This document shows positions 157 to 26,373 of a stretch of DNA of 64,000 nucleotides, piece by piece. Below the pieces are notes generated by a model. It was not told the origin of the DNA, made no database searches, and worked only from the letters and a program-made list of their open reading frames with translations. The stretch is from Pirellulaceae bacterium (GTDB lineage: Bacteria > Planctomycetota > Planctomycetia > Pirellulales > Pirellulaceae), in NCBI GenBank assembly GCA_019636385.1, contig JAHBXT010000003.1:930001-994000 (forward strand), written 5' to 3'. The position numbers and the translations under genes are program-made. Positions within the stretch are counted from its first letter, which is position 1, and the number at the start of each line of letters is the position of its first letter.

Positions 157-2214
157 ATGTCAGAGCAAACGAGTTCGATTTGGATGGAAGTCAGCAGTTG
201 CAAGAGAGCGTTGTTGGGTAGCGTTATCCTGTTGTGGCTGGGGGCTGTGGTCAGCGCTGCGGGCTTTCGTGAAGAGATCGCTGGTTTGCTACCGACGGAG
301 TCGGCGTTGGATGAGCCGTTTACGTTGGATTCGCAAGCCAAGTATTACGTCTTCACCTTCTTGGGAGTCGAATGTCCAGTGGCACGTCAGTACGGCGCCA
401 AACTGCAATCACTGGCAGATCGATTCCAAGATCGCGGGGTGCAGTTTATTGGCATTAACAGTAATCCTCAGGACTCGAAGGCAGAACTTGCCAAGTACCA
501 GCGCGAGGTTGGCGTTCGGTTTGCGATGCTGAAAGACCCAGGCCAACAAGTCGCTAAGCGATTTTCCGCGACTCGCACCGCCGAGGTCGTAGTCGTGGAC
601 GCTCAGGGCAAAGTCCAATATCGCGGACGCATTGACGATCAATACTCACCAGGTGTCGCGCGATCGGTCGCTGAATCACATGACCTGCGAGATGCCCTCG
701 ATAGCCTGACTGCTGGGCTGCCGGTGGCGATCGTCGAAACGAAGCCGGTTGGCTGTTTGATTACCTATCCCAAGCAACCTAGCCAGCAGCCGACAGTCAC
801 GTTCACTAAGGATGTTGCGCCGCTGCTGTACCAACACTGTTATGAATGTCATCGCAGCGGCGAGATAGGTCCGTTTGATATCTCGGACTACGACGACTTG
901 CTGGGCTGGGGCGAAATGTTGGTTGAGGTCATGGAGCAGAAGCGTATGCCACCCTGGCACGCTAGCCCAGAGTACGGTTCGTTCAGAAACGAGCGACACT
1001 TGCCTGCCGACGTCCTGCCGATCGTTCGCCGATGGATCGACGAGGGAATGGCGTATGGCGATACTTCGGAATTGCCTGCCAAGCCGAAATATACCGACGG
1101 CTGGAGACTACCCCAGCCTCCTGAAATGGTGTTTGAAATGCGCAATCGACCCTATCGAGTTCCCGCAGATAAGACGATCGACTATCAGTACTTTGTGGTG
1201 GATCCTGGCTTTACAGAGGATAAATGGGTCAGCGCATCGCAAATCATTCCTGGCGCATCCTCGGTTGTACACCATGCCATTGTATTTGTAAGGCCTCCCG
1301 ACGGTGGCGACTTCGTGGGAATAGGTTGGTTGAATGCGTATGTTCCCGGTCAAGTGCCAGTGATTTATCCGCCGGGATACGCGCGTAAAATTGCGGCCGG
1401 ATCCAAGCTTGTGTTTCAGATGCATTACACGCCCAGCGGCACTGAACAACTGGATATAACCAAAATCGGTTTGAACTTTATGGATGCCAGCCAAGTGACA
1501 CACCAGGTTTATACCCTGGTTGCCATTGATCAGGATTTTGAAATTCCACCTCACGCGCCAAATCATACCGTGGTGGCAAGCGCCCAGCGACTACCAAAGC
1601 ATGGTGAGTTGCTGTCGATTTCTCCACACATGCACCTGCGCGGCAAAGCTTTTGAAGTTTTTACCAAGCAGGGTGCTGTAACTCAGACAATTTTGAAAGT
1701 GCCGCATTACGACTTTAATTGGCAGCACACCTATGAATACAACCAGCCTATCCCGCTGAATGAAATCGATGACATTTCGATCACAGCGACCTTCGATAAT
1801 TCCAAAGACAATCCGTTTAATCCCAATCCGGACGAATTTGTGATGTGGGGAGATCAGACCTGGGAGGAGATGACGTTAGCCTACTTGGATGTGGCGGTTT
1901 CCATGGACCTAGTGCGCTTTGCCAGTGTCGTGCGAGAATTTCGCGTCAACACCCAGAATGAATCAACTGCATCAAATGTCGTGTCCGCGTCGACTTCGGA
2001 ACAATCAGCAGAGGAACTGCAATTGGCCACGGCATTTGCCGAAGAGTTCATGGCCAAGCATGACCGGAATGGAGATGGCGCGCTGACCCGATCTGAAGTG
2101 CCCACCATCTTTGGTGATTATGCTTTCTGGAGCGTAGACCGCGATTACGATCAGCGACTTACCCGAGAGGAACTCATTCAAGCGTTCAGAGAAAGCCGTG
2201 ACCGAAGTCGATAA
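157..2214 (+). CDS. Redoxin / c-type cytochrome / Cu type II monooxygenase-like / EF-hand fusion protein
   Basis: A secreted multidomain protein of 685 residues. An N-terminal hydrophobic segment (about residues 18-35) looks like a signal peptide. A thioredoxin-fold redoxin follows (about 55-190) with a single Cys in an ECPVA motif near 72, not CxxC. A haem-binding CYECH is near 228. The large C-terminal part resembles peptidylglycine/dopamine-type copper monooxygenases: a HH pair near 372, QMHY near 421 and HMH near 491, all plausible copper ligands. Two EF-hands close the protein: DRNGDGALTRSE near 635 and a weaker one near 661. The same order is seen in the gene at 21465-23660. Its stop overlaps the start of the RND exporter by 17 bases, so the two are probably co-transcribed. 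The substrate is unknown. An alternative start is the ATG at 184. Confidence 0.85.
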   Translation: MSEQTSSIWMEVSSCKRALLGSVILLWLGAVVSAAGFREEIAGLLPTESALDEPFTLDSQAKYYVFTFLGVECPVARQYGAKLQSLADRFQDRGVQFIGINSNPQDSKAELAKYQREVGVRFAMLKDPGQQVAKRFSATRTAEVVVVDAQGKVQYRGRIDDQYSPGVARSVAESHDLRDALDSLTAGLPVAIVETKPVGCLITYPKQPSQQPTVTFTKDVAPLLYQHCYECHRSGEIGPFDISDYDDLLGWGEMLVEVMEQKRMPPWHASPEYGSFRNERHLPADVLPIVRRWIDEGMAYGDTSELPAKPKYTDGWRLPQPPEMVFEMRNRPYRVPADKTIDYQYFVVDPGFTEDKWVSASQIIPGASSVVHHAIVFVRPPDGGDFVGIGWLNAYVPGQVPVIYPPGYARKIAAGSKLVFQMHYTPSGTEQLDITKIGLNFMDASQVTHQVYTLVAIDQDFEIPPHAPNHTVVASAQRLPKHGELLSISPHMHLRGKAFEVFTKQGAVTQTILKVPHYDFNWQHTYEYNQPIPLNEIDDISITATFDNSKDNPFNPNPDEFVMWGDQTWEEMTLAYLDVAVSMDLVRFASVVREFRVNTQNESTASNVVSASTSEQSAEELQLATAFAEEFMAKHDRNGDGALTRSEVPTIFGDYAFWSVDRDYDQRLTREELIQAFRESRDRSR

Positions 2215-4519
2215 CTACCGTTCGAGGACTGCCCGATTTTTTGCGAAATTCATCGACTACCCCAGGCTGGGAGTGGTGCTGATCTTCCTCTTGAGCCTAT
2301 TGTCTTGGGCTGGCTTCAACTACCCCGACTGGCCGGATGCAGTTTACCGGAAGCTGACGGGATCGACTGAGTCCTGGTTCACGTCGGAAGACAACCAAGA
2401 CCAGGATGATGGCTGGGGCCGCAGGCCCAGTCGAAGTCGCGCTCGTTCCGGCGGCTCGGCGTTTGGCCGCGCCGACACGCTGCTGGTGATTCAGTCCAAG
2501 CAGTTCTTCACCTATGAAGGTGCGCAAGTGCTGCGAGATCTCGTCGATCGACTGGAGGCACTGGATAGTGTTGCTTCCGTATCGTGGATGGATAATGCGC
2601 CTCCCCTGAATATCTTCGGACTGGCTGAGCCGGTGGTCCCTCGTGGACAGGCCTCCGAGCAACGATTTGCTATCTCTCAACAAAAGGCGGTCAAGCACCC
2701 TTTGATCGTAGGTCAGTATCTGTCGCCCGATGCCCAGACAGCGCTGATGATGATCTCTTTTGATTGGTTATTTGTCCACGAAGAAGCTGATTGCACTACC
2801 AAGATTATCGAGGTGGCCAAGGCGGCCCTTGCGACTCATCCCTCGGTCAACATGCAATTTTCGGTCACGGGCCCCGTGCCCATTCGGTTGATGTTGATGT
2901 CCGAGCGGCGTGGCAACGAATTCAAATACCAGATGATCGCCTACGGCATTATCTTCGTCATGTCAGTAATTCTGTTCCGTGGCTTGTCGGTCGTGTTGGT
3001 GGTTGGCCTGGCGCCTATGTTGGGTGTCATTTGGACCTTGGGTTTTTTGCGATATTTTGGACTAGAGGACAATCCCTTCAGCCCGGTAATCGTGCCTGTG
3101 CTGGTGAGTTTAGTCGGCTTTACCGATAGCGTTCACATGATGGTGTATGTCCGCAAAAGGTTGCAGCTTGGCGAGCAACCGATTGAAGCTTGCCGACACG
3201 CCCTGGCCGCAGTTGGTCTGGCTTGCTTCCTGACTTCGCTAACCACTGCCATCGGCATGGGCTCTTTGGTGCTCTCGCATCACGAAGTTGTCCGCGATTT
3301 CGGATTAGCTTGCGTGATGGGGGTCTGCTTTACGTGGATATCCGTAATGATCGTGATTCCACTGGCTTGCCACACGCGCTGGGGATCGCGACTGAACCGC
3401 GGTGCAGATCGTGGAATCATCGAACAGAATTTGAATCTATTCACCGGTGGCGTGCGCAGTTTTCTGAAGTATCCCAAGACTGTCAGCACAGCTTCCATTG
3501 CGTTGCTGATGGTACTGACTGGTGCTGCACTGACACTTCGCCCCGATGATCGTACGTCCAATTTGATGCCCAAGAACAGTCCTGCGCAAATGACGTTAGC
3601 GCATCTGGATCAGTCGATGGGTGGATTAGACGTCTGCCGCGTCGAAATCGCTTGGAATGATCCACAGCAATCGCCGGAGCAGGTAGCCCAGTTGGTCCAG
3701 CAGGTAGATCAGATTTTAAGTGGCGAACCACTGATCGGTCACCCGATGTCGCTGACACGTTTGATCGACGCCTTGCCGGGTGAGGACTCGGCTATCGAAA
3801 AAATGTCGATGGTGGAACTGCTGCCGCCGCCTTTGAAGCGGGCTGTATTTAATACCGAAGAACAAGAGGCAGCCGTGATGTTCCGCGTCAAAGACTTGGG
3901 GACCGCTACTTACAAGCCTGTATTCGAGCGGATCGATGCCGCACTGAAAACATTGATGGCCCAGCACCCCGCTTACAGACTGACGATGACGGGTGGGCCG
4001 ATTTGGAAATGGCGAGATTTGTATCGAGTTGTGCTTGATCTGGTGTTTAGTTTGGGCACTGCGCTGATCATCATCACCATCGTCTTGGCCGTGGCTTTCA
4101 AGTCCCTGCGGCTGGGAGTGATTTCGATTCTCCCCAATACATTGCCCATAGCAGCCTCCGCAACGTATTTGGTCATCATTGGCCAGCCATTGGAAATGGT
4201 GTCGGTGTGTGCCTTTACCATTTGCCTGGGGATTGCCGTCGACGACACCATTCATTTCTTGTCACGATACAGTGAAGAGCAGCATGGAGCGGGCACCCGC
4301 GAAGAGCAAATTGAGCGAGCCTTTCATGGAGTGGGCACTGGATTAATCATGACTTCCATTGTCTTGATCGCAGGCTTTGGTTCAGTCATGACCAGCCCCA
4401 CGCCCGATATTAAGACCTTTGCCGTCTTAGGGGTATGCTCACTGACAACTGCCCTGTTGGCTGATCTCTTCCTGCTACCTGCGTTGCTGATACAGTTCGA
4501 CAAAGGAAAAGTATCCTAA
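2198..4519 (+). CDS. RND superfamily exporter (MMPL/HAE3-type)
   Basis: A predicted inner-membrane, proton-driven exporter of 773 residues. It has the internal two-fold layout of the family: one N-terminal helix (about 20-45), a large periplasmic loop, a helical bundle, then the same again. The two family signatures occur at equivalent places: GFTDSVHMMVYVRKR near 307 and CLGIAVDDTIHFLSRY near 676, with acidic residues in the membrane as expected for proton coupling. The GTG start at 2198 lies inside the end of the upstream fusion gene, implying translational coupling. An Arg/Ser/Gly-rich stretch at about residues 68-85 is an unusual low-complexity insertion in the first loop. No adaptor or outer-membrane partner is adjacent, which fits HAE3 exporters of hydrophobic or lipid-like substrates. 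The cargo is not predictable. Confidence 0.85.
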   Translation: MTEVDNYRSRTARFFAKFIDYPRLGVVLIFLLSLLSWAGFNYPDWPDAVYRKLTGSTESWFTSEDNQDQDDGWGRRPSRSRARSGGSAFGRADTLLVIQSKQFFTYEGAQVLRDLVDRLEALDSVASVSWMDNAPPLNIFGLAEPVVPRGQASEQRFAISQQKAVKHPLIVGQYLSPDAQTALMMISFDWLFVHEEADCTTKIIEVAKAALATHPSVNMQFSVTGPVPIRLMLMSERRGNEFKYQMIAYGIIFVMSVILFRGLSVVLVVGLAPMLGVIWTLGFLRYFGLEDNPFSPVIVPVLVSLVGFTDSVHMMVYVRKRLQLGEQPIEACRHALAAVGLACFLTSLTTAIGMGSLVLSHHEVVRDFGLACVMGVCFTWISVMIVIPLACHTRWGSRLNRGADRGIIEQNLNLFTGGVRSFLKYPKTVSTASIALLMVLTGAALTLRPDDRTSNLMPKNSPAQMTLAHLDQSMGGLDVCRVEIAWNDPQQSPEQVAQLVQQVDQILSGEPLIGHPMSLTRLIDALPGEDSAIEKMSMVELLPPPLKRAVFNTEEQEAAVMFRVKDLGTATYKPVFERIDAALKTLMAQHPAYRLTMTGGPIWKWRDLYRVVLDLVFSLGTALIIITIVLAVAFKSLRLGVISILPNTLPIAASATYLVIIGQPLEMVSVCAFTICLGIAVDDTIHFLSRYSEEQHGAGTREEQIERAFHGVGTGLIMTSIVLIAGFGSVMTSPTPDIKTFAVLGVCSLTTALLADLFLLPALLIQFDKGKVS

Positions 4520-7949: not shown

Positions 7950-8068
7950 AGTTGACTGTCAAAGAATGCCAGGGTCGGAAGGTGGAAGTGTATTGGTAGC
8001 TCAGCTTACTGATCCAGCCAAAATCGGCAACCCGTCTGTGTGCCCGTCCATGTGTGCAGGTGTCAGCC

Positions 8069-9481
8069 ATGAATAGCGATTTCAAAGGGGGCAACAGTCG
8101 CCAGTTGGGGCAATTGCTGGACGCCCTAGGCCAGCCGCTGGCGATTGTCGATCGCATCGGAGAAATCGTGTTTGTTAACGCTCCACTGTGCCGGTTGGTC
8201 GGAGCCCAGGCGTCCGAGCTCGTAGGGCAGGGCTGTAGTTGGCAGGTCGCTGAGGATGGAGCCCACAGTGCGATCCGCACGGCCTTAGCGCCGCCGGCCG
8301 GCGCATTGGACGGCCGTACCGTCGTGCGTCAACTGGCTGTTCCTGTCGTGTTTGGTTCGCCGCAGACCGGCCAGGCCTTTATCCCCTTGCCAGATTCCGA
8401 AGGCGCCGTACATGTCGTCCTGGTTGTGTTGGGCAACTTTGAATATCTTCGGCGGCTACTGACCACGCCGGCACACACCTTCGCTGGCTCGCGGACGGCG
8501 GACCAAACGCTAACGGAGATACGCAGTCGCTGGAAAACGCTGGATGGACTTACGGCATTGGTTGGCAGTAGCCCTACCGTGCAACTTGCCATGCAGCGCG
8601 CCCAACTGGCAGTGGCTCAACCATGCAACTTGTTGATCTACGGTCCGGCGGGCGTTGGCAAACTGGAAATCGCCCAAGCGATTTTTCGCGGGCGCCTAAA
8701 ATCTTCGGGTCTGCACGCGGCGCTCGGACAATGTTTTCCGATTGAGTGTCGAGTACTGGACGGCCAACTAATCGCCAGCATGTTAGAGATCTTTGTGGAG
8801 CGCTTACAATCTGAGGTGCCGAGAACTGCGCAGCAGCTGGTGCTGATTGGACTGGATCAACTTGAAAGTGCAGCGGTCCAGCTCCTACGGACATGGATAG
8901 ATGACCACCGTGACAAGTGCTACATCGTTGCTACCAGCAGTCAATCAGCAGCGGCCTTAGCCCCGCGCAGTTCAGGTTGGGCAGAGCTTGTAACCCGCAT
9001 TGCTACTTTAGAAATCGGACTTTCGCCACTGGCGGAACGCCGGCAAGACATCGCACCGTTGGCGCTGCAGTCGCTGGCCGAAGCCTGCTTGCAAGCTGAC
9101 CGAGCGCAATTGACACTGTCTGCCCAAGCGCAAGACCTGTTGGTAGCCTATGCCTGGCCAAACAACGTTCGGCAGCTTCGCGCGGCGCTGGCGCAAGCCG
9201 TGGAGCGTGCCGTATTGACCGCGTCAGTTCAACCTTCGCATTTGCCGGTGGCCATTCGAACCTTCGCTGGCGCGGTGGCTGCGAGCCAGAAGGCGGCCGT
9301 TGCGCCGGTGGACTTGGATGCGGTGCTCATTGAAGTCGAAAAAATCATGCTTCGCAAAGCACTGCAAGTGTCGCCTCGCAATCGGGCTCGCGCAGCCCGG
9401 CTACTTGGCATCAGCCGCTCACGGTTGCTACGGCGTATCGACCAGCTTGGGCTTGGCGATGCTCAACAGCCTGCAGAATAG
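8069..9481 (+). CDS. PAS-AAA-Fis regulator resembling sigma-54 activators but lacking GAFTGA
   Basis: A cytoplasmic regulator of about 470 residues. An N-terminal PAS-like segment (about 10-100) is followed by a degenerate AAA+ domain with Walker A GPAGVGKLEIAQ near 200, a Walker-B-like LIGLDQLE near 262, the typical SPLAERRQDIAPLA segment near 325 and YAWPNNVRQLR near 363. A C-terminal Fis-type helix-turn-helix ends the protein (ARAARLLGISRSRLLRRI). The region between Walker A and B, where sigma-54 activators carry GAFTGA, has no such motif. It may therefore bind DNA and sense a signal without remodelling sigma-54 polymerase. The ATG at 8069 is preferred over the upstream GTG at 8054. Target genes are unknown. 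Confidence 0.75.
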   Translation: MNSDFKGGNSRQLGQLLDALGQPLAIVDRIGEIVFVNAPLCRLVGAQASELVGQGCSWQVAEDGAHSAIRTALAPPAGALDGRTVVRQLAVPVVFGSPQTGQAFIPLPDSEGAVHVVLVVLGNFEYLRRLLTTPAHTFAGSRTADQTLTEIRSRWKTLDGLTALVGSSPTVQLAMQRAQLAVAQPCNLLIYGPAGVGKLEIAQAIFRGRLKSSGLHAALGQCFPIECRVLDGQLIASMLEIFVERLQSEVPRTAQQLVLIGLDQLESAAVQLLRTWIDDHRDKCYIVATSSQSAAALAPRSSGWAELVTRIATLEIGLSPLAERRQDIAPLALQSLAEACLQADRAQLTLSAQAQDLLVAYAWPNNVRQLRAALAQAVERAVLTASVQPSHLPVAIRTFAGAVAASQKAAVAPVDLDAVLIEVEKIMLRKALQVSPRNRARAARLLGISRSRLLRRIDQLGLGDAQQPAE

Positions 9482-17034: not shown

Positions 17035-19314
17035 TCACGACCACGATAGATCATGGTCTGTGATGGGCAGGTCGCGGATTCGTTTGCCAGTAGCGGCAAA
17101 AATGGCATTGCAGAGCGCTGGGGCAAACGAAGCAATTCCGGTTTCGCCAACTCCAGCTGGCGCTGCATCGGAGGCGACAATATCCACGAATATTTGGCGC
17201 GGCGCATCACTCATCTTGCACATCGGATAGCTGTCATAGTTCGATTGGTCCGCTCGACCATTGGTAAATGTCAGCTTACCGTACAGGGCTTGGGTCGTTG
17301 CCATAACCGAGGCACCCTCGATTTGCGCGCGGACTCGATCGGGGCTGACGACTGTGCCGGCATCCAGCGATACCCACACCTTGGGGATGCGAACCTGGCC
17401 ATCTTTGGTCACTTCCACTTCGATCACATGACCGGTGTATCCCAAGAAGGAACGCGCGCAAGCAATCCCCAGTCCGCGACCTTTAGGCAGCCCAGCAGCC
17501 CGTTTCCAATCGGCTTGCTCGGCTGCTCGACGAAGTACGTTCTTCAAACGGCCGATATCACAGGGATACTCTTCGTGGCTCGCACCACGATTGCCTAACT
17601 TCTCGGCCTTCATGTCGATTCGACGATCGGCACCCAGCAGCTCCAGCAAGTACTCATAGGGATCACGCCCAGCAGCCGAAGCCAACTCATCGGCAAACGA
17701 GCTGACCGCGAAGTTCTGTTGAATATGACAGACCGCCCGAAACCAGCCGATGCGCACGTGGGCTTTGGCTTGCCCCACCTCGAACCGCATATTGGGGATA
17801 TCAAAAGGCAGGTCCGAGTGACCCATCTCTGCCTCACCTGCCGATGGCAGTTCGGCGCGCGGCATAAAGGTCGATCCAATCGGGGGATAGGCGGCGCGCT
17901 GCAACCAAGCCGACGGTTTGCCGGTTTCGTCTACAGCCGCTTCACAATGGATTGCAGAGATGGTGTGGTAATAATCATGCTGCAAATCATCTTCGCGAGT
18001 CCAGGTCACATGAACTGGGCGTTTTGCCTGACGGCTTAGGATGGCAGCTTCAACGCAGTAGTCAGGCTTACTCTTGCGACCAAACCCCGACCCAAGCAGG
18101 GTGACATTGACCAAAACATCACCAGCCGGTATCCCCATGGCCGGGCCGACCGCTTGCTGCACGGCTTGCGGGTTCTGAGTCGCCGCCAGGACCTGACACG
18201 ACGTCACTTTCCCCTGAGCGTCCGTCTTAACGTCGGCTACAGCGCAAGTCGGCTCCATCGATGCATGTGCCAGGTGCGGCACAGAGTAGTCGGCTGTCAC
18301 TACTTTTTTCGATTGACTGAGGACCGCACCGGCATCGCCTGATTCTCGCAGAACCTTCCCTGGTTTCTTCACGGTTTCTGCCAGTTGCTTGGCGAAATCC
18401 TGCGAGTTGTATTCCGCATTGGCCCCATCATCCCACTCGATTTCCAGCGCGTCGCGCCCTTGCCAGGCGGCCCAGGTGCTGGTAGCCAGCACGGCGACAC
18501 CGCCCAGCGGCTGAAAACCTGGCGCACCCTTGAAGGCCGGTATTTCAATCACGTCGACAACCCCCGGCATGCGCTTCGTCTTGGTGGCATTGAATGACGC
18601 AACTTTGCCTCCCACAACAGGAGGGCGGGCGATGACAGCGTAGAGCTGATTATCCATCCGCGCATCGATGCCGAAAATCGCCTTGCCAGTCAGAATATCA
18701 TCCTGGTCGGTAATCGGCACATCTTTGCCGATGTATCGCCACTGACCGCTCGGCTTAAGTTGCAGCTCCTTTTCCGAGGGAACAGGCAATTGTTTGGCCT
18801 CTGCGACCAGTTCCCCGAAGCCCAGCGAACGATCGCTACCTTTATGCTTGATCACATGATTTTCTGCGTAACACTCGCTAGCATCGACATTCCACTTCTT
18901 TGCCGCCGCGCGTTCGAGCATCGTCCGCGCAGTAGCTCCGGCTACGCGCATGCGTTTGAAGAACAGACGAATGCTGTTGGAGCCATCGGTGTTTTGATCC
19001 CCCAAACGCTTGTCGCCAATGGCCTGCTGGATCACCACCCGATTCCAATCGGCCTCTAATTCGTCCGCCACAATTCGCGGTAGGCTAGTACGAATTCCGG
19101 TTCCCATTTCGGAGCGATGGACCAGGATGGTCACAACGCCGTCTGGGGCAATGGCGACGAAAAAGTCTGGCGCAAAATCATCGGCACTCCGCTGACTGGC
19201 GTCCTGCAGGCCCGCTTCCTGCCCTAGCCCAACCTTACCCATCAGAATCAGTGACGAGGCTGAGAGAGTGGCGAGAAAATTCCGGCGTGAAACTTGAGTC
19301 TTGATGACGGTCAT
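17035..19314 (-). CDS. Molybdenum hydroxylase large subunit, isoquinoline 1-oxidoreductase beta type
   Basis: Binds the molybdopterin cofactor and hydroxylates a substrate at a carbon atom with water as oxygen source. The 759-residue protein starts with a Tat signal ([18 protein letters not shown]), so it is exported folded. Family features are [17 protein letters not shown] near 72, [17 protein letters not shown] in the middle, and the catalytic Glu in [13 protein letters not shown] near 725. GSGFGRK rather than GGAFGGK separates it from xanthine dehydrogenase and puts it with the IorB/aldehyde oxidoreductase group. It overlaps the small-subunit gene (ATGA at 19311-19314), so the two are translated together. 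The natural substrate (aldehyde or N-heterocycle) cannot be read from sequence. Confidence 0.87.
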
Positions 19315-19769
19315 TGGTTCAACTCCTTGGCAGCAGCCTTGATAGCTTCACGGATGCGGGGATATGTTCCGCAGCGGCAAATATTCCACATCTCTGTGTC
19401 GATATCGTCGTCGGAAGGATTGTTGTTTGATTTCAGCATAGCAGCCGCCATCATCATCTGGCCGACCTGGCAATAGCCACACTGCGAGACATTGTGCTGC
19501 CGCCAAGCTTTTTGCACCGGGTGCGAGCCGTCGCTGGAGAGTCCCTCGATGGTGGTCACCTCACTGTCCCCCACTTCGCTTAGCGCCGTCACGCAAGCTT
19601 GAACCGCTTGGCCATCCAAGTGGACCGTGCACGCACCACATTCAGAAACTCCACAACCGTATTTAGTGCCGGTCAGCCCAAGGTTGTCACGCAAGACCCA
19701 TAGCAGCGGCGTGTCCTCAGGCACATCGGATAACTCATGGATTTTTCCGTTGACTTTGATTGTGGTCAT
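19311..19769 (-). CDS. (2Fe-2S)-binding small subunit of molybdenum hydroxylase, IorA type
   Basis: Electron-transfer subunit of the Mo hydroxylase encoded just downstream. In 152 residues it has both expected iron-sulfur clusters: the plant-ferredoxin type in [17 protein letters not shown] (Cys near 39, 44, 47, with a fourth near 59) and the second in [11 protein letters not shown] plus [11 protein letters not shown] (Cys near 97-100 and 129-131). There is no FAD domain, so electrons must leave to another carrier, as in the two-subunit IorAB class. It has no signal peptide of its own and probably rides out with the Tat-tagged large subunit. First gene of the pair. Confidence 0.92.
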
Positions 19770-19876
19770 AACTGGCTTCCTGACTTAGGCGTCGCCGCGT
19801 GAAACGAAGTACTCTTCTTGGGGTGCATTATACGAAGTTTTCGTGCGATGGCAGCCAGCCTGTCCGGCGAATCACA

Positions 19877-20560
19877 CTACGGGTTGAGCTTAGCACATCT
19901 CAGAGCCAATTGATACTCGGCAGGCGTATCGATATCTGCCACTGCCAACTCTGATGGGAACAATACGAACTGCTGAGGATAGCGTTTGACTAATGCGTCG
20001 ACGCCATGCTGCGGGCCGAGTGCAATAATCTCAGAAGCGCATGCCCATGGCAACAGCGCTGGATGCCCCACGATCGAAGCGTCGAGCGTTGGGCCAAAAC
20101 GAGGCAGCAAAACCGTCCGCTGATCAGTCCGCGCGTCAATGAGGCCATCGATGACTTGGGTAGTCAACCCGGGCAGATCGGCTGGAGCAATGAAGAAACA
20201 TGCGCCTACGGCGGAAACAGGACGAGAAATCAGTGACCTCAAGCCGACGCAGATGGACGCTCTCATATCCTCCGTGGGCTCAATCGGATGTACGATAGTC
20301 ACCGGCCAGCGCTGGCAAACGTCGCGCAGTTCCAGGTCATCGCCGCGGATCACAACGATAGTTTCCGTTACCCGGCTGGTGGTCCAGGCCGCCAGCACTC
20401 GGTCGATCACGCAGCGGGCTGTTGACGCTTCCTCAGTGGCAGAGCGGTGTGTTAGACGTGCAGCGGTCGGACTGGCTACGGGCCAGGGCATCAACAGTTT
20501 GTGCTGCCCCATCCGACGACTGCGACCCGCCGCTGGTATAATCGCGTAACATGGATTCAA
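19877..20560 (-). CDS. MobA/MocA-like molybdenum cofactor nucleotidyltransferase
   Basis: A 227-residue NTP transferase. The N-terminal loop AAGRSRRMGQHKLLMPW (residues 10-26) is the nucleotide-binding signature, followed by IVVIRGDDLEL and the metal-binding region FIAPADLPGL near 120. This fits MocA-like enzymes that attach CMP (or GMP) to molybdopterin for xanthine-dehydrogenase-family enzymes. The position next to XdhC and two Mo hydroxylases supports this; the base specificity is not clear. The start appears to be TTG at 20560, since no ATG precedes the conserved loop. It is 28 bases from the divergent xdhC-like start. Confidence 0.8.
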   Translation of the reverse strand: MNPCYAIIPAAGRSRRMGQHKLLMPWPVASPTAARLTHRSATEEASTARCVIDRVLAAWTTSRVTETIVVIRGDDLELRDVCQRWPVTIVHPIEPTEDMRASICVGLRSLISRPVSAVGACFFIAPADLPGLTTQVIDGLIDARTDQRTVLLPRFGPTLDASIVGHPALLPWACASEIIALGPQHGVDALVKRYPQQFVLFPSELAVADIDTPAEYQLALRCAKLNP

Positions 20561-20588
20561 GGGAGGCGTTCCAGTATGATACAGAGTT

Positions 20589-21380
20589 ATGACGCATAAT
20601 ATCGTAGACCATCATCGGCTGGTGCAAAAGCTGCTTGACCAAGGCGAATCGTTCGCCGCGGTAACCCTGGTCGAAATTCGCGGTAGCGCGCCGCAGATTG
20701 TAGGAGCCAAATGTGTTGTCACGCGCTCAGGCATTGAAGGCGGAACGGTGGGCGGCGGCAAAATCGAAGCCGCAGCCATCGACTACGCTCAACAATTGCT
20801 CGCCAGCGGACAACAACATGCTGAACTGGTCACATGGAACCTGCAAACTGAGATTGGCATGACCTGTGGCGGCGAGGTCAAGCTGTTCTTTGATGTATAC
20901 GCCAATGCGGCCTGGCCAATCGTGATATTCGGAGCTGGGCACATTGCTCAGGCGTTGGTTCGACTATTGTTGAATCTGGATTGTCGAGTCACCTGCATTG
21001 ATACTCGATCCGATTGGCTCAGCAGATTACCGGATGACAACAAGCTGATGAAGATCTGCGTTGATACTCCGCGTGACCTAGTGGCACAGCAACCCGCCAA
21101 CGCATATTTTGTCTTGATGAGCAAGGGGCATGCTACCGACCTGCCCGTGCTGCATGAAATCCTGGCTACACGCAACGCACCCTACGTGGGCGTGATTGGC
21201 AGCCCACAAAAAGCCAGCGTCTTGCGCCGCGATCTAAACAGCCTGGGACTGGCGCCTGATAAGATCAAATCGTTTCACTGTCCAGTTGGATTGCCAATTG
21301 GCAACAACACGCCGGCTGAAATCGCCATCAGCATCGCTGCCCAGTTGTTGCAACACCGCGATGGAAATGCCGACGCTTAA
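20589..21380 (+). CDS. xdhC: XdhC/CoxI family molybdenum cofactor maturation protein
   Basis: Binds molybdenum cofactor, promotes its sulfuration and hands it to a xanthine-dehydrogenase-family enzyme. The 263-residue protein has the N-terminal XdhC motifs (VEIRGSAPQIVGAKCVV, GGTVGGGKIEA), a conserved Cys in GMTCGGEVKLFFD, and a C-terminal Rossmann domain (IVIFGAGHIAQALV near 112, then YVGVIGSPQKASVL). The ending GLPIGNNTPAEIAISIAAQLL is typical. It is divergent from the MocA-like gene and could serve the Ior-type enzyme at 17-19.8 kb, the XDH at 27-31 kb, or both. Confidence 0.9.
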   Translation: MTHNIVDHHRLVQKLLDQGESFAAVTLVEIRGSAPQIVGAKCVVTRSGIEGGTVGGGKIEAAAIDYAQQLLASGQQHAELVTWNLQTEIGMTCGGEVKLFFDVYANAAWPIVIFGAGHIAQALVRLLLNLDCRVTCIDTRSDWLSRLPDDNKLMKICVDTPRDLVAQQPANAYFVLMSKGHATDLPVLHEILATRNAPYVGVIGSPQKASVLRRDLNSLGLAPDKIKSFHCPVGLPIGNNTPAEIAISIAAQLLQHRDGNADA

Positions 21381-21464: not shown

Positions 21465-23660
21465 CTACTCCCGGCGTCGCTCGGGTGGCCCACCGCCTCC
21501 GGTAAACAATCGCATAATGGTGTTCATCTCTTCCAGGCTGATGCTACCATCTTTGTTCAAGTCGATTAGCGCAAACTGTTGTGCCATTCGCGCCGGTAGC
21601 TCTTCCTTCGCCAATTTGCCATCGCCGTTGGTGTCCATCATCTTAAAGATCTCTTCGGGATTGATCTGTTGACCGAAGACGCGACCGCCTGCCGCTGTCG
21701 GGGGCTCTTGACCTTTAGGGTAGGTGACGACATAGAAGCCAATCATCATCTCCTCGAACGTCTGCTCGCCCCAGCTGACTGTCGCTGAAGGGTCTGGATT
21801 GGAGAGATTGCCTTCCGAGTTATCCCAAGTGGCGGTGCAGACCAGCTTGGTGCCCTTGGGCATCAGCTTGGGCTCTTTGAGAACGTAGGTTGTCTGCCAG
21901 TTAAAATCATAGGTCGGCACATCTAACAAGGTTTCTTGCCGACCATCCGGGTAGGTGACATCATAGCGAAATGCCTTGCCGCGAGAGTGCAGGTGCGGCG
22001 TCAGATTCAAGACCATCGTGTCTGCATCGAAAGTCCCCTCGGCTTTGGCCTGATAGTCAGCCGCACCAGGTGGAATGCTGAAGAACGGATTGACTGCCGA
22101 TTCGCTGCGAGCCACATATTTAACCTTTTCTGGATCGGCAAAAATCACGCCCAGGCAACTGCGGTCTTGTTGCGGAGTACCATTGGGTGTGTAGTGCAAT
22201 TGGAAGATCAGTTTCGATCCTGCCTTGATGTGCAGGGCGGTCGTGCCGTCGGATGCCAGCAGGGGCGTTGCGCCAGGGGCATAACCGGCGATTAAGCTCC
22301 CGCCGCCAATACCCGCTCCGCCACCGCGCGGCCCACGTTCTCCACCACCACGGCCGCCAAATCCACCACGCCCACCGAATCCGCCGCGGCGATTCGGGCG
22401 CTCAGCGCCGTCATCGGACGGACCATCGCCTTCGCGCTGAGCCTGTGGTCCGCGCTGGCCGTCGGGTCGCCCGCGCGATCCGCCACCAAAGCCAGCGCCA
22501 AATCCGCCAGCGTCAGGCGGCTGAACGAACACCAAAATATGATGCACCGTCTCCAAGCTGCCTGGCTTCGCCTCTGTAGCCATAATCCATTTGTCTTCTG
22601 TCCAACCGGGGTCCACCACAAAATGGTAGTAGTCAATCACGCCCTCAGCAGGAACATCGACCGGATTGTCACTCATGTAGATCACCTGGTCGGGCTGACC
22701 GATGCTCCAACCTTCAGCGTACTCTTGAGGAGTCGGCAAGTCGTCAGGGTTACCTTGCGGGCAGCCATTGTCGACCCAGGTGGCGATCAGTTGTTTCTCT
22801 TGTTCGCTCAGGCGACTATCGTTCTTAAACGTGCCGTGAGCTGGATTAGCGTGCCAGGGCGGCATGCGCCCCATATCCACGACTTCGCGAATCATTTCGC
22901 CCCAACCGACTACATCCTCATAGCTCTTCATTTCGAACGGCCCGATACGACCAGCTCGATGGCACTCGACACAGTTCTTTTGGAAGATGCGGGCGATCTG
23001 ATTGCTGTAGGTCACCTCGGAGGCTTCATTCGGCTCGCGAACTCGACCGATGTGGCAGCCGATGGCGCTGGTTTCGGCCACACTGACGGGAACGCCTGCC
23101 AACAATTCCTTAACCGCTTCGTACAAGTCGCGACGAGTTGGCTCGGGACGCTGGTAGCCCACGCTGTCGTTGAAGCCGTATTGATCGTCGATGCGCCCGT
23201 GATAGCGCACCACGCGCTGCTTGTCTAGTACAAATACTTCGGGCGTCCGCGCTGCACCGAATTGATCGGCCACGACGTTGCCAGCATCTTTCAGAACAGG
23301 AAAGTCGATTTTATGTCGCTGCGCGTAGGCGGCAATTTCATTGATGGCATCTTGACGGTTGGACATGATGCCTAAAAACGCAACCTTTTGGTCCTTTAGC
23401 TCGCTAGCCAAATCCGAGAGTCGCGGTCCGTAGAGTTTTGCCAGCGGGCATTCCGTTCCCAAAAAGGCCACCACCACCACATCGCTGTCACGCAGATCTT
23501 GCAGCGAATACTCTTTGCCAAACTGGCTCTTGAGTGAAAAATTTTGAATCTTGGCGCCAAGCCGGTTTGAGTCAGCAGCGCGTAATGGCTCGGCCAGCAA
23601 AAACGCAGAAGTGATAGTCAAAGCAGTCGCCAGAATCCGAGCGAGTGTACAGCGTCGCAT
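21465..23660 (-). CDS. Redoxin / c-type cytochrome / Cu type II monooxygenase-like / EF-hand fusion, RGG-insert copy
   Basis: Paralogue of the gene at 157-2214, in the same domain order. Start at ATG 23660, with AAGGAG and good spacing upstream; the product is 731 residues. Signal peptide (about 5-28); redoxin with single Cys in ECPLAKLYG near 70; haem motif CVECH near 232; copper-site candidates VHHILVF near 372, QLHYTPNG and PHLHSRG near 555; two EF-hands (DTNGDGKLAKEE, DLNKDGSISLEE) near 673-715. Unlike its paralogue it has an insertion of about 70 residues rich in Gly and Arg (about 380-457, several RGGFGG units) between the HH and QLH copper motifs. The last residues are Pro/Arg-rich (GGGGPPERRRE). 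Not next to an RND exporter. Confidence 0.85.
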   Translation of the reverse strand: MRRCTLARILATALTITSAFLLAEPLRAADSNRLGAKIQNFSLKSQFGKEYSLQDLRDSDVVVVAFLGTECPLAKLYGPRLSDLASELKDQKVAFLGIMSNRQDAINEIAAYAQRHKIDFPVLKDAGNVVADQFGAARTPEVFVLDKQRVVRYHGRIDDQYGFNDSVGYQRPEPTRRDLYEAVKELLAGVPVSVAETSAIGCHIGRVREPNEASEVTYSNQIARIFQKNCVECHRAGRIGPFEMKSYEDVVGWGEMIREVVDMGRMPPWHANPAHGTFKNDSRLSEQEKQLIATWVDNGCPQGNPDDLPTPQEYAEGWSIGQPDQVIYMSDNPVDVPAEGVIDYYHFVVDPGWTEDKWIMATEAKPGSLETVHHILVFVQPPDAGGFGAGFGGGSRGRPDGQRGPQAQREGDGPSDDGAERPNRRGGFGGRGGFGGRGGGERGPRGGGAGIGGGSLIAGYAPGATPLLASDGTTALHIKAGSKLIFQLHYTPNGTPQQDRSCLGVIFADPEKVKYVARSESAVNPFFSIPPGAADYQAKAEGTFDADTMVLNLTPHLHSRGKAFRYDVTYPDGRQETLLDVPTYDFNWQTTYVLKEPKLMPKGTKLVCTATWDNSEGNLSNPDPSATVSWGEQTFEEMMIGFYVVTYPKGQEPPTAAGGRVFGQQINPEEIFKMMDTNGDGKLAKEELPARMAQQFALIDLNKDGSISLEEMNTIMRLFTGGGGPPERRRE

Positions 23661-24196
23661 AGTGTGTCTCCTTAATGGCACAAAGAGCTACGATCCATGT
23701 CCAATTCGTATTCAATTGCAGGATGTTGGGCTGAGGCGTCAATTATTTTCAGTCTTTATGCCCGCTGGGCGGCCACGGGGCTCACCGCCAACACTAGCAG
23801 TTTCTTCCATTGACGGCCAGATTGCAATTGCAAGACCGCACAATCTGCCGCGATATTCCAAGGTTTTTTACGGGTTCTGCACCTGAGAAACATAGTATCC
23901 AGGAAAGCCACCGGTACGCCAACAATGTTTCGCAAGCTTGGCAAATCGGACAGCTTTACGAAGTCGTAGTGTGCTGCGATTCATACGCCGGCTTGGCACT
24001 GACGATGTACTGTGCTGATTCGCCGAATTGTCAGAAACGTTGCGTTATTCAGAATATCCCTGCGCCCAGTTGGTTGTACGGGGCTCGGCATTGGATTAGA
24101 TTCGGATCTGCCAGTAGAAGCTGTATTTGGTCGGGATGCGGGGTAGCGCTCGTTCGTCGCGACTGTCCATCAGTTCTAGTTGCCAGGGAGACTGCC
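23661..24196. other. Intergenic region, 536 bases
   Basis: The left two-thirds hold no recognisable gene or RNA. From about 24065 onward the sequence is nearly identical to the leader of the second PEP-CTERM gene (see repeat). An open frame runs through from 23810, but its upstream part has no family features and no start signal, so it is treated as read-through. Confidence 0.4.
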
Positions 24197-24340
24197 GTGA
24201 AAACGAAAAGTAAATTGTTGCTGATTGGCTGGGCGATGCTGTTGAGTCTGTGTGTCAGGCAGGCCGATGCGGCGCTGGTGAACTGGACTGTCGATAGCGC
24301 CAACAGCTATGTGCGCATCAACCTGCCGCTGAACTCCACC
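24065..24340 (+). repeat. 5' part of tandem duplication, copy 1
   Basis: The segment from 24065 through the leader and first codons of the first PEP-CTERM gene recurs at 25270-25545 with an offset of 1205 bases. The non-coding 132 bases upstream of the start differ at only a few positions. Similarity continues into the genes: after a short divergent patch (about 24340-24372) it is again nearly identical to about 24610, then falls. Confidence 0.9.
24074..24102 (+). promoter_or_regulatory. Candidate sigma-70-like promoter of PEP-CTERM gene 1
   Basis: TTGTAC (24074-24079) and TAGATT (24097-24102) are 17 bases apart. Matches to consensus are modest (3/6 and 4/6). Support comes from the position: the duplicated block starts just upstream, and the same boxes recur in copy 2 at 25279-25307. 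Confidence 0.3.
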
Positions 24341-25162
24341 TTCACCCTTTCCGGAACAAATCTCTCGGTACGGTTGCGAAATGCGGATAACAGCGCCTGG
24401 AGCGACGCAGGCGGACGGATGTCGCGATTCAGTGGTACGTTGGCAACCGAGTATTCTGAAGATACATTTGGGCCAGGCAGCCCCAACCACATTCAGTACC
24501 TGGACGGGTCCCATGCCCTGCAGTCGATCAACTTCGGCAGCTTCCGGCCCGATCCAGATCAATTCAGTCCTACGGCGACCAACGCCAGCAATCCGGACGG
24601 GCAGTATACGGCTACTGGTGGTTCACCTCACTCCTTCGCGCTCAGAGTGAACTGGACTTCCTTTTTTCCGTCGGGAACGATTGGCTTTTTGGGGTTGCGA
24701 GACGTGCAATACAATGCCAGCGGAGGACTTGTCTCACTAGCGGGAAGTGGCGGTAATTTGACAGCCGGGGCCAACGCCTCAACGTTTAGCTGGTCAGGTG
24801 GTCTGGCGGATGTTGATGGGTTCGACCTCGGACCAGGGTTAGGGCAACGCAATCGCGATAGGGTCGGTGGAGACATGTCGATTTTGTTTAGTACGAACAT
24901 GGAAACCAATGGAGGAGGTCTGACGATCACCAACCTCGGTGGCCTCAACCGTCAGCTTGACCAGATCATTGACATTCCAGTCGTGTTTACGTTCATCGGT
25001 GGTGATACACCGGTGGCTTCCGACGATTCGATAGTTACCGGCAGGTTGCAAGGTCACTTGCGTGCCTTTGCCACTGTGCCAGAACCATCCAGTATACTGC
25101 TGGTGGGCCTTGCAAGCGCTGCAAACATAATGCGTTGGCGACGTAGGGCTCGAGCGCGATAG
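24197..25162 (+). CDS. PEP-CTERM sorting domain protein, copy 1
   Basis: An exported protein of 321 residues from the GTG at 24197, with GGGAG upstream; the ORF is open further back but without signal. It has a signal peptide (KLLLIGWAMLLSLCVRQADA), a beta-rich body with repeated Asn/Ser/Gly and no catalytic motif I recognise, and a C-terminal PEP-CTERM tag: VPEPSSILLVGLA, a short hydrophobic stretch, then RWRRRARAR. Such tags are cut by exosortase and link proteins to the envelope or exopolysaccharide. The N-terminal half is almost identical to the neighbouring copy, the C-terminal half less so. Role unknown; probably a surface or matrix protein. Confidence 0.8.
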   Translation: MKTKSKLLLIGWAMLLSLCVRQADAALVNWTVDSANSYVRINLPLNSTFTLSGTNLSVRLRNADNSAWSDAGGRMSRFSGTLATEYSEDTFGPGSPNHIQYLDGSHALQSINFGSFRPDPDQFSPTATNASNPDGQYTATGGSPHSFALRVNWTSFFPSGTIGFLGLRDVQYNASGGLVSLAGSGGNLTAGANASTFSWSGGLADVDGFDLGPGLGQRNRDRVGGDMSILFSTNMETNGGGLTITNLGGLNRQLDQIIDIPVVFTFIGGDTPVASDDSIVTGRLQGHLRAFATVPEPSSILLVGLASAANIMRWRRRARAR

Positions 25163-25269
25163 CCAGCCGTACAGGGTGACCATAAAACAGTGCCGACCGC
25201 ATTATACTTGGCTTTAAGCGGCCAGTGGCGCATGGCTATAAGTGCTGACTTTCTGCCTAGTTTCTTAAT

Positions 25270-25545
25270 CCCAGTTGGTTGTACGGGGCTCGGCATTGGA
25301 TTAGATTGGGATCTGCCAGTAGAAGCTGTATTTGGTCGGGATGCGGGGTAGTGCTCGTTCGTCGCGACTGTCCGTCAGTTCTAGTTGCCAGGGAGACTGC
25401 CGTGAAAACGAGAAGTAAACTGTTGCTGATTGGCTGGGCGATGCTGTTGAGTCTGTGTGTCAGGCAGGCCGATGCGGCGCTGGTGAACTGGACTGTCGAT
25501 AGCGCCAACAGCTATGTGCGCATCAACCTGCCGCTGAACTCCACT
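25270..25545 (+). repeat. 5' part of tandem duplication, copy 2
   Basis: Counterpart of 24065-24340, shifted by 1205 bases. It covers the leader, the ribosome binding site and the signal-peptide codons of the second PEP-CTERM gene. Sequence left of 25270 shows no similarity to sequence left of 24065, so this is the duplication edge. Confidence 0.9.
25279..25307 (+). promoter_or_regulatory. Candidate sigma-70-like promoter of PEP-CTERM gene 2
   Basis: The same boxes as in copy 1 (TTGTAC, 17 bases, TAGATT), retained in the duplicated leader. If functional, the two genes are transcribed separately under the same control. Confidence 0.3.
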
Positions 25546-26373
25546 GTCAGTATCTCTGGTACGGCTGTGACCATTCGGTTGCGAAATGCGGATAACAGCG
25601 CCTGGAGCGACGCAGGCGGACGGATGTCGCGATTCAGTGGTACGCTGGCAACCGAGTATTCTGAAGATACGTTTGGGCCAGGCAGCCCCAACCACATTCA
25701 ATACCTGGACGGGTCCCATGCCCTGCAGTCGATCAACTTCGGCAGCTTCCGGCCTGATCCTGATCAATTCAGTCCTACGGCGACCAACGCCAGCAATCCG
25801 CAGGGGCAGTATACGGATACTGGTGGTTCGCCCCACTCTTTTGCTATCAGATTTAACCTCCAATCATTGCTGCTGGTTAACCTTCCTCCCGTCTACTACG
25901 GCTTGCGCGATATTCAATATAGCGCCGGCAGTGGCTTAATTGCTCTGGTCGGCAGCGGAGGCAATTATACGGCTGGTGCGAATGCATCAACATTTGGTTG
26001 GAGCGATGGACTGGTTGATATTGATGCCCCCAACATGGGGGTGTTATTAGGGCAGCTTATTCCCGATTCAAGTGGAGGAAGTCTAGCGAGTTGGTTTAGT
26101 ACGAACCTGGAGACTAATAGTGGCGGTTTGACGATCACCAATCTGGGTGGTCTGAGTCGCCAGCTAGACCAGAACATCGACATTCCAGTCTACTTTGCGG
26201 CCTACGACTTTGGCACGTCACAAACCAGTGATGACTGGATTCTGGCCGGTAGGTTGCAAGGGCGCCTGCGTGCCTTTGCAACGGTGCCGGAACCGACAAG
26301 TGGCGTGCTGGTTGGAATTGCAGCTGCGTCAAGCTTGCTGCGTCGGCGTCGGAAGAAGCGGCAATATGAGTAA
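25402..26373 (+). CDS. PEP-CTERM sorting domain protein, copy 2
   Basis: Tandem paralogue of the preceding gene, 323 residues from the GTG at 25402. The same signal peptide with one change (KTRSK for KTKSK) and an almost identical first half, apart from a short patch (VSISGTAVTI against FTLSGTNLSV). The second half has diverged more, for example around the GLRDIQYSAGSG segment. It ends with VPEPTSGVLVGIAAASSLL and RRRRKKR, a PEP-CTERM tag. Exosortase is not in the window. Function unknown. Confidence 0.8.
   Translation: MKTRSKLLLIGWAMLLSLCVRQADAALVNWTVDSANSYVRINLPLNSTVSISGTAVTIRLRNADNSAWSDAGGRMSRFSGTLATEYSEDTFGPGSPNHIQYLDGSHALQSINFGSFRPDPDQFSPTATNASNPQGQYTDTGGSPHSFAIRFNLQSLLLVNLPPVYYGLRDIQYSAGSGLIALVGSGGNYTAGANASTFGWSDGLVDIDAPNMGVLLGQLIPDSSGGSLASWFSTNLETNSGGLTITNLGGLSRQLDQNIDIPVYFAAYDFGTSQTSDDWILAGRLQGRLRAFATVPEPTSGVLVGIAAASSLLRRRRKKRQYE

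Follow-up and report, generated by a model that had tools for sequence, protein, structure and literature searches.

A redoxin-haem-dicopper-EF-hand fusion gene of planctomycetes coupled to the gene of an MMPL-class RND permease: a candidate haem-fed hydroxylase with a transport partner

What does a polypeptide that joins a redoxin, a haem module and a copper monooxygenase-like part do next to an RND permease? The question is raised by the first two genes of the window, i.e., the whole stretch of 64,000 nucleotides from a Pirellulaceae bacterium analyzed here. After 156 bases the window contains an ORF at 157-2214 (+ strand, ATG start, 685 aa), termed the fusion, and a second ORF at 2198-4519 (+ strand, GTG start, 773 aa) encoding an RND permease of the MMPL class. 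A preliminary description, made from the sequence, had placed a redoxin, a CxxCH haem module, a copper monooxygenase-like part and EF-hands in one polypeptide, overlapping an RND exporter by 17 bases. The domain order was borne out, and both ORFs are present with bases 2198-2214 in common. A chance ORF or a mis-joined frame was ruled out, since the entire fusion architecture is conserved among relatives. The fusion and permease genes form a two-gene unit.

Related loci were collected with one genome per species, and the best 80 of 144 loci were taken. An RND homologue was found directly downstream on the same strand in 62 of these 80 loci. The structure alignment of the fusion contained 51 of the 80 loci, the window protein and a paralogue located at 21.5 kb (53 rows), the copper-domain alignment contained 33 of the 80 loci and the window protein, and the RND alignment contained 45 of the 62 loci and the window protein (46 rows). 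The features of the locus, all on the + strand, are as follows.

157..2214, +, fusion protein: leader, redoxin, c-type haem module, PHM/DBH-type dicopper domain and two EF-hands
157..261, +, hydrophobic leader at the N terminus, about aa 1-35, interpreted as a Sec signal peptide (model helix 16-29)
262..777, +, redoxin domain, about aa 36-207 (Pfam AhpC-TSA; Z 21.9 to 2cvb)
373-375, +, redoxin cysteine C73 (invariant, 53 rows)
754-756, +, redoxin cysteine C200 at the domain end (invariant, 53 rows)
778..1107, +, c-type haem module, about aa 208-317 (CxxCH and candidate axial Met)
838-852, +, CxxCH motif, aa 228-232 (C228, C231 and H232 invariant in 53 rows)
946-948, +, candidate axial Met264 in RMPPW, aa 263-267 (M264 invariant in 53 rows)
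1108..1926, +, predicted PHM/DBH-type dicopper domain, aa 318-590 (Z about 21 to PHM; Cu2_monoox_C)
1270..1275, +, candidate CuH ligands H372 and H373, PHM H107/H108 (invariant; assigned by motif and aligned range)
1351..1353, +, Q399, marker of the RND-linked subfamily (63/63 paired proteins, 0/12 outside the subfamily)
1423..1425, +, candidate CuH ligand H423, PHM H172 (invariant)
1627..1635, +, candidate CuM ligands H491 and H493, PHM H242 and H244 (invariant)
1726..1728, +, H524, marker of the RND-linked subfamily (63/63 paired proteins, 0/12 outside the subfamily)
1870..1872, +, candidate CuM ligand M572, PHM M314 (invariant)
2062..2097, +, predicted EF-hand loop 1, aa 636-647 (D636 and E647 in 63/63 paired proteins; best EF-hand_1 stretch 629-648)
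2137..2172, +, predicted EF-hand loop 2, aa 661-672 (D661 in 63/63 and E672 in 62/63 paired proteins)
2198..2214, +, overlap of the fusion and permease reading frames (17 bases common to both ORFs)
2198..4519, +, RND permease of the MMPL/HAE3 class, 773 aa (Pfam MMPL 92 bits, cut-off 20.5)
3125-3127, +, permease D310 in a predicted helix (invariant, 46 rows)
4241-4246, +, permease D682-D683 in a predicted helix (invariant, 46 rows)

A hydrophobic 12-mer (mean 1.8 or more) was found ahead of the redoxin in 59 of the 63 paired proteins, and two of the four misses are truncated. Both Pfam AhpC-TSA (aa 56-155) and Pfam Redoxin scored above their cut-offs in the window fusion. The redoxin had been described as a single-Cys one. 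This holds for the CxxC motif, which is down to one cysteine (C73), but not for the domain, where the second cysteine, C200, is equally invariant. The closest structures are the Thermus thermophilus thioredoxin-like protein 2cvb and its kin 2ywi and 3u5r (Z about 21-22, 24-29% identity), and a C-terminal cysteine is present at the C200 position in 2cvb and 2ywi. Unlike these three proteins, the fusion redoxin is joined to other domains and has lost the first cysteine of CxxC: in the printed alignments the fusion family reads GxxCP where 2cvb and 2ywi read CxxCP. The pair of cysteines within one CxxC that marks a thiol-disulfide oxidoreductase is thus absent, C73 being kept in the motif and C200 elsewhere, which makes a classical CxxC exchange unlikely. 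With these two cysteines the redoxin may act on the copper supply.

The haem module combines CxxCH with a candidate axial ligand, as is characteristic of c-type cytochromes, at the predicted sites C228, C231, H232, and M264. Pfam Cytochrome_CBB3 matched 36 of the 53 aligned proteins (E <= 0.01), the window fusion not being one of these.

The dicopper domain adopts the two-subdomain PHM/DBH fold in the predicted AlphaFold2 model of the fusion, which was built from the 53 aligned proteins (mean pLDDT 87.9, pTM 0.79). Foldseek searches with this model placed peptidylglycine monooxygenase (PHM) and dopamine beta-hydroxylase (DBH) at the top, the best PHM chain having an E-value of 2.8e-14. With VIA-align the best Z to PHM was 21.0, for about 250 residues (roughly 315-591 in the model), and that to human DBH was 20.1. 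With Cu2_monoox_C, the C-terminal Pfam model, the full-length window protein scored 22.9 bits against a cut-off of 23, while the isolated domain passed with 25.3 bits, and 32 of 34 isolated copper domains were matched at E <= 1. The N-terminal Pfam model of the PHM family matched one of the 34, weakly (E 0.046), and PHM was not found when a sequence profile of the dicopper domain was compared with the PDB, the sole match being one unrelated chain (E 1.1). The link to PHM therefore has three sources: the predicted structure, the motifs of the ligands and the match to the C-terminal Pfam model.

In PHM, CuH is bound by His107, His108, and His172, M314 belongs to CuM, H242 and H244 are further ligands, and Q170 and Q272 take part in a water network at the substrate (PMC6123673, seen in part). 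Judged from the motifs HH, QxHY, HxH, and EEM and from the aligned range, H372, H373, and H423 of the fusion would correspond to CuH and H491, H493, and M572 to CuM. Conservation of the copper-ligand histidines had been set beforehand as a test of the preliminary description. All six candidate ligands were found invariant in the 53 rows and present in 63/63 paired and 12/12 other proteins, and in a larger alignment of 82 rows they had gaps in one or two rows and no substitutions. The same was found in the 82 rows for the candidate copper, haem and redoxin cysteine positions taken together, i.e., zero substitutions and gaps in few rows only. Q421, located two residues ahead of H423 at the position of PHM Q170, is likewise present in all 63 paired and all 12 other proteins. 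The PHM residues R240 and N316 bind the substrate carboxylate. We take positions 489 and 574 of the fusion to be their candidate counterparts, by offset from the copper ligands. Both positions are variable and mostly small or aliphatic (S489 and L574 in the window protein), and among the 63 paired proteins there is no Arg489 and no Asn574. As a lead, this makes peptide amidation by the fusion look unlikely.

Two 12-residue calcium loops are predicted at the C-terminal end. The EF-hand_1 model matched 49 of the 53 aligned proteins (E <= 0.01); the window protein scored just under the cut-off (24.3 vs. 25.4 bits) and has a Gln at position 6 of loop 2 in place of the usual Gly. Three paralogues from the same genome (L117, L120, and L121) have no clear EF-hands, so this part appears to be optional.

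The permease was assigned to the MMPL/RND proteins from the Pfam MMPL score above cut-off and from RND fold matches. In Foldseek searches with its model (pLDDT 86.9) MmpL-class chains came nearest, followed by HpnN and NPC1L1. It shares with MmpL-class transporters and HpnN the overall fold, the MMPL family, the invariant Asp residues and a size near that of MmpL3. It differs from them in having about 15% identity, and every NCBIfam model that matched it did so under its cut-off, with 161 against 351.9 bits for HAE3. The scores for the HpnN hopanoid transporter were 36.3 against 1100 bits and 67 against 751.85, and the permease is thus not an HpnN by NCBIfam score. Residues D310, H313, D682, D683, and H686 are invariant in the 46 rows, as expected for a proton-driven RND protein.

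The protein kinds involved (PHM, DBH, redoxins, c-type cytochromes, MMPL permeases) were known before, and the fusion with its permease partner is a new variation on them. It resembles PHM (PDB 1sdw, 1opm) in the two-subdomain dicopper fold of the model and in the conserved candidate equivalents of H107, H108, H172, H242, H244, M314, and Q170. It differs from PHM by an identity of only about 16%, by the added redoxin, haem c and EF-hands, and by the variability of the positions assigned to R240 and N316. The core of DBH is joined to a DOMON domain. DBH (PDB 4zel) and the MOXD/TBH group are thus alike the fusion in core fold and in carrying a further domain, whereas the partners in the fusion are a c-type cytochrome and a redoxin, and the fusion is bacterial and genetically tied to an RND permease. 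PHM is treated as a double-jelly-roll family in PMC8812541, and a redoxin-haem-dicopper-EF-hand fusion does not appear in the part of that text available to us. In the literature searched, with most subscription papers outside its scope, no title or start of an abstract names the fusion or the fusion-permease pair.

Starting from the domains, the conserved ligand residues, the PHM-like predicted fold and the strong genomic coupling described below, which the computation established, we propose the following mechanism. The product of the first gene would be a dicopper hydroxylase with the PHM/DBH fold that is exported to the periplasm by Sec and loaded there with copper at CuH and CuM. O2 activation and the hydroxylation of an aliphatic C-H would take place at CuM. 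Ascorbate is the electron source of PHM (PMC6123673, seen in part); in the fusion, electrons would enter via the fused c-type haem in place of free ascorbate, and CuH would hand them on. The redoxin would hold the dicopper site, or the copper supplied to it, in the reduced state, and calcium binding by the EF-hands would serve to stabilise or anchor the protein. The permease from the second gene would be a lipid-moving RND protein of the MmpL/HpnN type, powered by protons, that moves a hydrophobic molecule to or through the periplasm, and the hydroxylase would most likely act on that molecule.

We infer that metals and haem are bound, that electrons flow as described, that the protein is an active hydroxylase, that the transport is export and that the substrate is shared, and the parts of the proposal differ in strength. 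The hydroxylase half draws on the conserved sites and the predicted fold. From the genomic linkage, it is probable that the hydroxylase and the permease share a pathway; the simplest form, in which the cargo of the permease is the substrate of the hydroxylase, draws on the same linkage and is a tentative suggestion. The modification of an exported compound, to which the preliminary description pointed, is likewise tentative. The reading as a whole, a haem-fed periplasmic dicopper hydroxylase working in one pathway with a lipid-type permease, has in our judgment an even chance of being right. A further step, to a dedicated oxidise-and-export line of planctomycetes for an envelope lipid or secreted amphiphile, with an ascorbate-free, haem-fed hydroxylase acting on the cargo of its own transporter, would be somewhat unlikely.

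PHM-type two-copper hydroxylases finish the peptide hormones of animals. To our knowledge, the characterized dicopper enzymes of the PHM/DBH type come almost exclusively from animals, along with a few other eukaryotes. If the proposal is true, the fusion would be a bacterial counterpart of these hormone-finishing enzymes, turned to lipids. A bacterial branch with a possible built-in electron donor bears on the origin of the dicopper family and on how CuH is fed, and the tie to a lipid-type RND permease offers a concrete entry to substrate discovery in planctomycetes.

The coupling of the two genes was analyzed in several sets of genomes. At the 62 related loci with a permease downstream, counted from the first possible start codon, the frames overlap in 32 and lie within 100 bases in 49, the largest gap being 388. 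Of 198 genomes drawn from the class, 44 had an RND above 500 bits and 48 had one at E <= 1e-110. The fusion was adjacent in 40 of the 44, or 41 when G267 is included, where the fusion is cut by the contig end immediately before the RND gene. The remaining three (G241, G289, and G136) have the RND with the fusion at another place. Five weaker RND matches (33-34% identity) had no fusion on the same contig among the matches listed; this search scored five candidates per genome, so misses are possible. A thinner draw from the phylum gave an RND in 5 of 119 genomes, with the fusion adjacent in all five. That the pairing might be restricted to this genome, the other refuting condition set beforehand, was rejected by this recurrence at the related loci and in the class and phylum draws. 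Among 40 near relatives, 17 had an RND at E <= 1e-130, and in the own genus the number was 10 of 15 genomes including this one; several of the other genomes are incomplete. The distribution of the unit is thus patchy, with conservation wherever it occurs.

Twelve genomes with no RND at the fusion locus were searched in full, a set to which the genomes of L097 and L099-L103 do not belong. Ten of the 12 carry an RND (all E <= 1.4e-127), and the genomes of L042 and L068 had none at the cut-off. Some of these cases may be contig breaks, as in G312, where the RND is located on a 3.6-kb contig. G320 from this search looks identical to G136 from the class draw, with the same RND place, so the counts overlap by one. 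The neighbors of the unlinked RND genes differ between genomes and have no common partner, so that they give no clue to the substrate. In L139 (4934-8148) the non-adjacent RND gene overlaps by a few bases an ATP-grasp-like gene, read by eye.

Of the 198 class genomes, 142 had a fusion at E <= 1e-110, and in 98 of these no RND exceeded 500 bits; the permease thus tracks one fusion subfamily and not the class. A fusion match of at least 560 bits, a cut-off picked after viewing the lists, went with an RND above 500 bits in 39 of 40 genomes, and in the exception (G229) the fusion groups outside the RND-linked subfamily. Pairwise distances of fusion and RND correlated with r = 0.87 (60 of 63 pairs; shuffled maximum 0.13), part of which is simply shared ancestry. 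Adjacency and co-occurrence do not demonstrate a shared substrate.

The permease might instead of carrying substrate or product service the enzyme or its membrane environment, e.g., with a lipid or a quinol-like reductant, and be co-expressed for that reason. Where the genes are separated, in three genomes, neither has been lost, which fits any interaction in trans, and biosynthetic genes do not recur beside the pair: no other gene family was found there in more than 16 sources, and there is no conserved third gene. Against this, RND proteins of the permease's class are cargo carriers, and we know of no servicing role for them. We consider this explanation unlikely.

The fusion might also be a copper or redox handling factor and not a hydroxylase, storing or delivering copper or sensing redox state while the RND protein relieves stress. 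The two invariant cysteines of the redoxin would agree with this, CusA-class RND copper pumps exist, and CusA was among the weak PDB profile matches of the permease. However, all 46 scanned permeases matched the HAE3 and MMPL models (E <= 1e-5), whereas the CusA/CzcA model matched eight of the 46, with a best E of 3.1e-8 that we read as general RND similarity, and this model (TIGR00914) was absent among the 14 NCBIfam matches of the window permease. A metal-pump character of the permease is not supported by these comparisons. The CuH/CuM residues are all retained as well, the Met and Q421 among them, and a copper or redox handling role is improbable.

HAE3/MMPL relatives include drug and lipid exporters, and the patchy occurrence in the class (48/198) and the own genus (10/15) could fit self-protection, with the enzyme oxidising a foreign hydrophobic toxin and the RND protein expelling it. 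Against such a role, the fusion is retained with the RND wherever the latter occurs in several families of the class, and a search of a plasmid set gave no sign of a mobile module: no record covered 80% of the fusion, and in the 15 records listed, out of 41, the match was confined to the redoxin part. There is in our view little chance that efflux explains the unit. That two unrelated genes came by chance to lie in one ancestral operon, their order persisting by inertia among related genomes, is very improbable, as 10 of the 12 genomes without adjacency keep the RND elsewhere (some perhaps through contig breaks) and the RND tracks one subfamily, being absent above 500 bits from 98 of 142 fusion genomes.

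For the preferred reading, a hydroxylase sharing a pathway with the permease, several cargo molecules were considered. Squalene-hopene cyclase (TIGR01507) was found in 136 of 198 genomes at E <= 1e-100. Many of these matches were split in two and this genome was unmatched, so the profile is uninformative on a hopanoid link. By word search, the parts of PMC12479983, PMC12078418, and PMC10896814 available to us mention no copper, monooxygenase or RND, and stieleriacines and alkylresorcinols therefore stay mere ideas as cargo.

This genome has seven full-length fusions, and an RND gene is found beside the window copy only. The six other copies lack Q399 and H524, which are present in every paired protein. 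These residues were considered as a mark of adjacency itself, which was rejected: 10 of the 12 non-adjacent fusions could be checked, with an RND in eight of these ten genomes, and all ten of these fusions keep both residues. Q399 and H524 therefore mark a clade. H524 comes directly after a conserved NWQ motif, and it would lie on the side of the substrate if Q523 corresponds to PHM Q272. F576 is near-fixed in the paired proteins (61/63), the window protein having a Tyr.

A quick tree of 88 proteins showed a clade of 71 rows (SH-aLRT support 100), namely 59 of the 63 paired proteins, 6 with short flanks and 6 unpaired; all six paralogues from this genome fell outside it. The remaining paired proteins (L085, L088, L091, and L092) were placed outside the main clade, yet carry Q399 and H524. 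The pairing probably arose once. SH-aLRT was the sole support measure, and two of the own paralogues gave a long-branch warning. The fragments L077 and L096 were excluded from alignments and trees, and L109 and L115 were excluded from the tree because their longest frame is not the fusion.

The paralogue at 21465-23681 had been described as having no RND partner. This was confirmed, its downstream gene being convergent and XdhC-like. It has a long Gly/Arg-rich insertion in the dicopper domain between the HH and QxHY motifs, which the five other own paralogues compared do not have. The copper and haem residues are retained in the own-genome paralogues, including L117, L118, L119, L120, and L121.

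Three other regions of the window were recorded. A sigma-54-activator-like protein with a Fis-type HTH is encoded at 8054-9481, few genes downstream of the fusion-permease unit, and its sigma-54 interaction domain match was barely above the cut-off (27.9 vs. 25). The region 17035-21380 contains a molybdenum hydroxylase set consisting of a MoCo-binding subunit, a 2Fe-2S subunit, a MobA-like nucleotidyltransferase (assigned by eye) and an XdhC/CoxI-like protein. At 24065-26351 a tandem duplication was found, in which a 300-base stretch is repeated 1205 bases on with 94% identity and two more stretches match in near register (80% and 71%). Both copies encode VPEP-tailed proteins, the first with a Pfam PEP-CTERM match.
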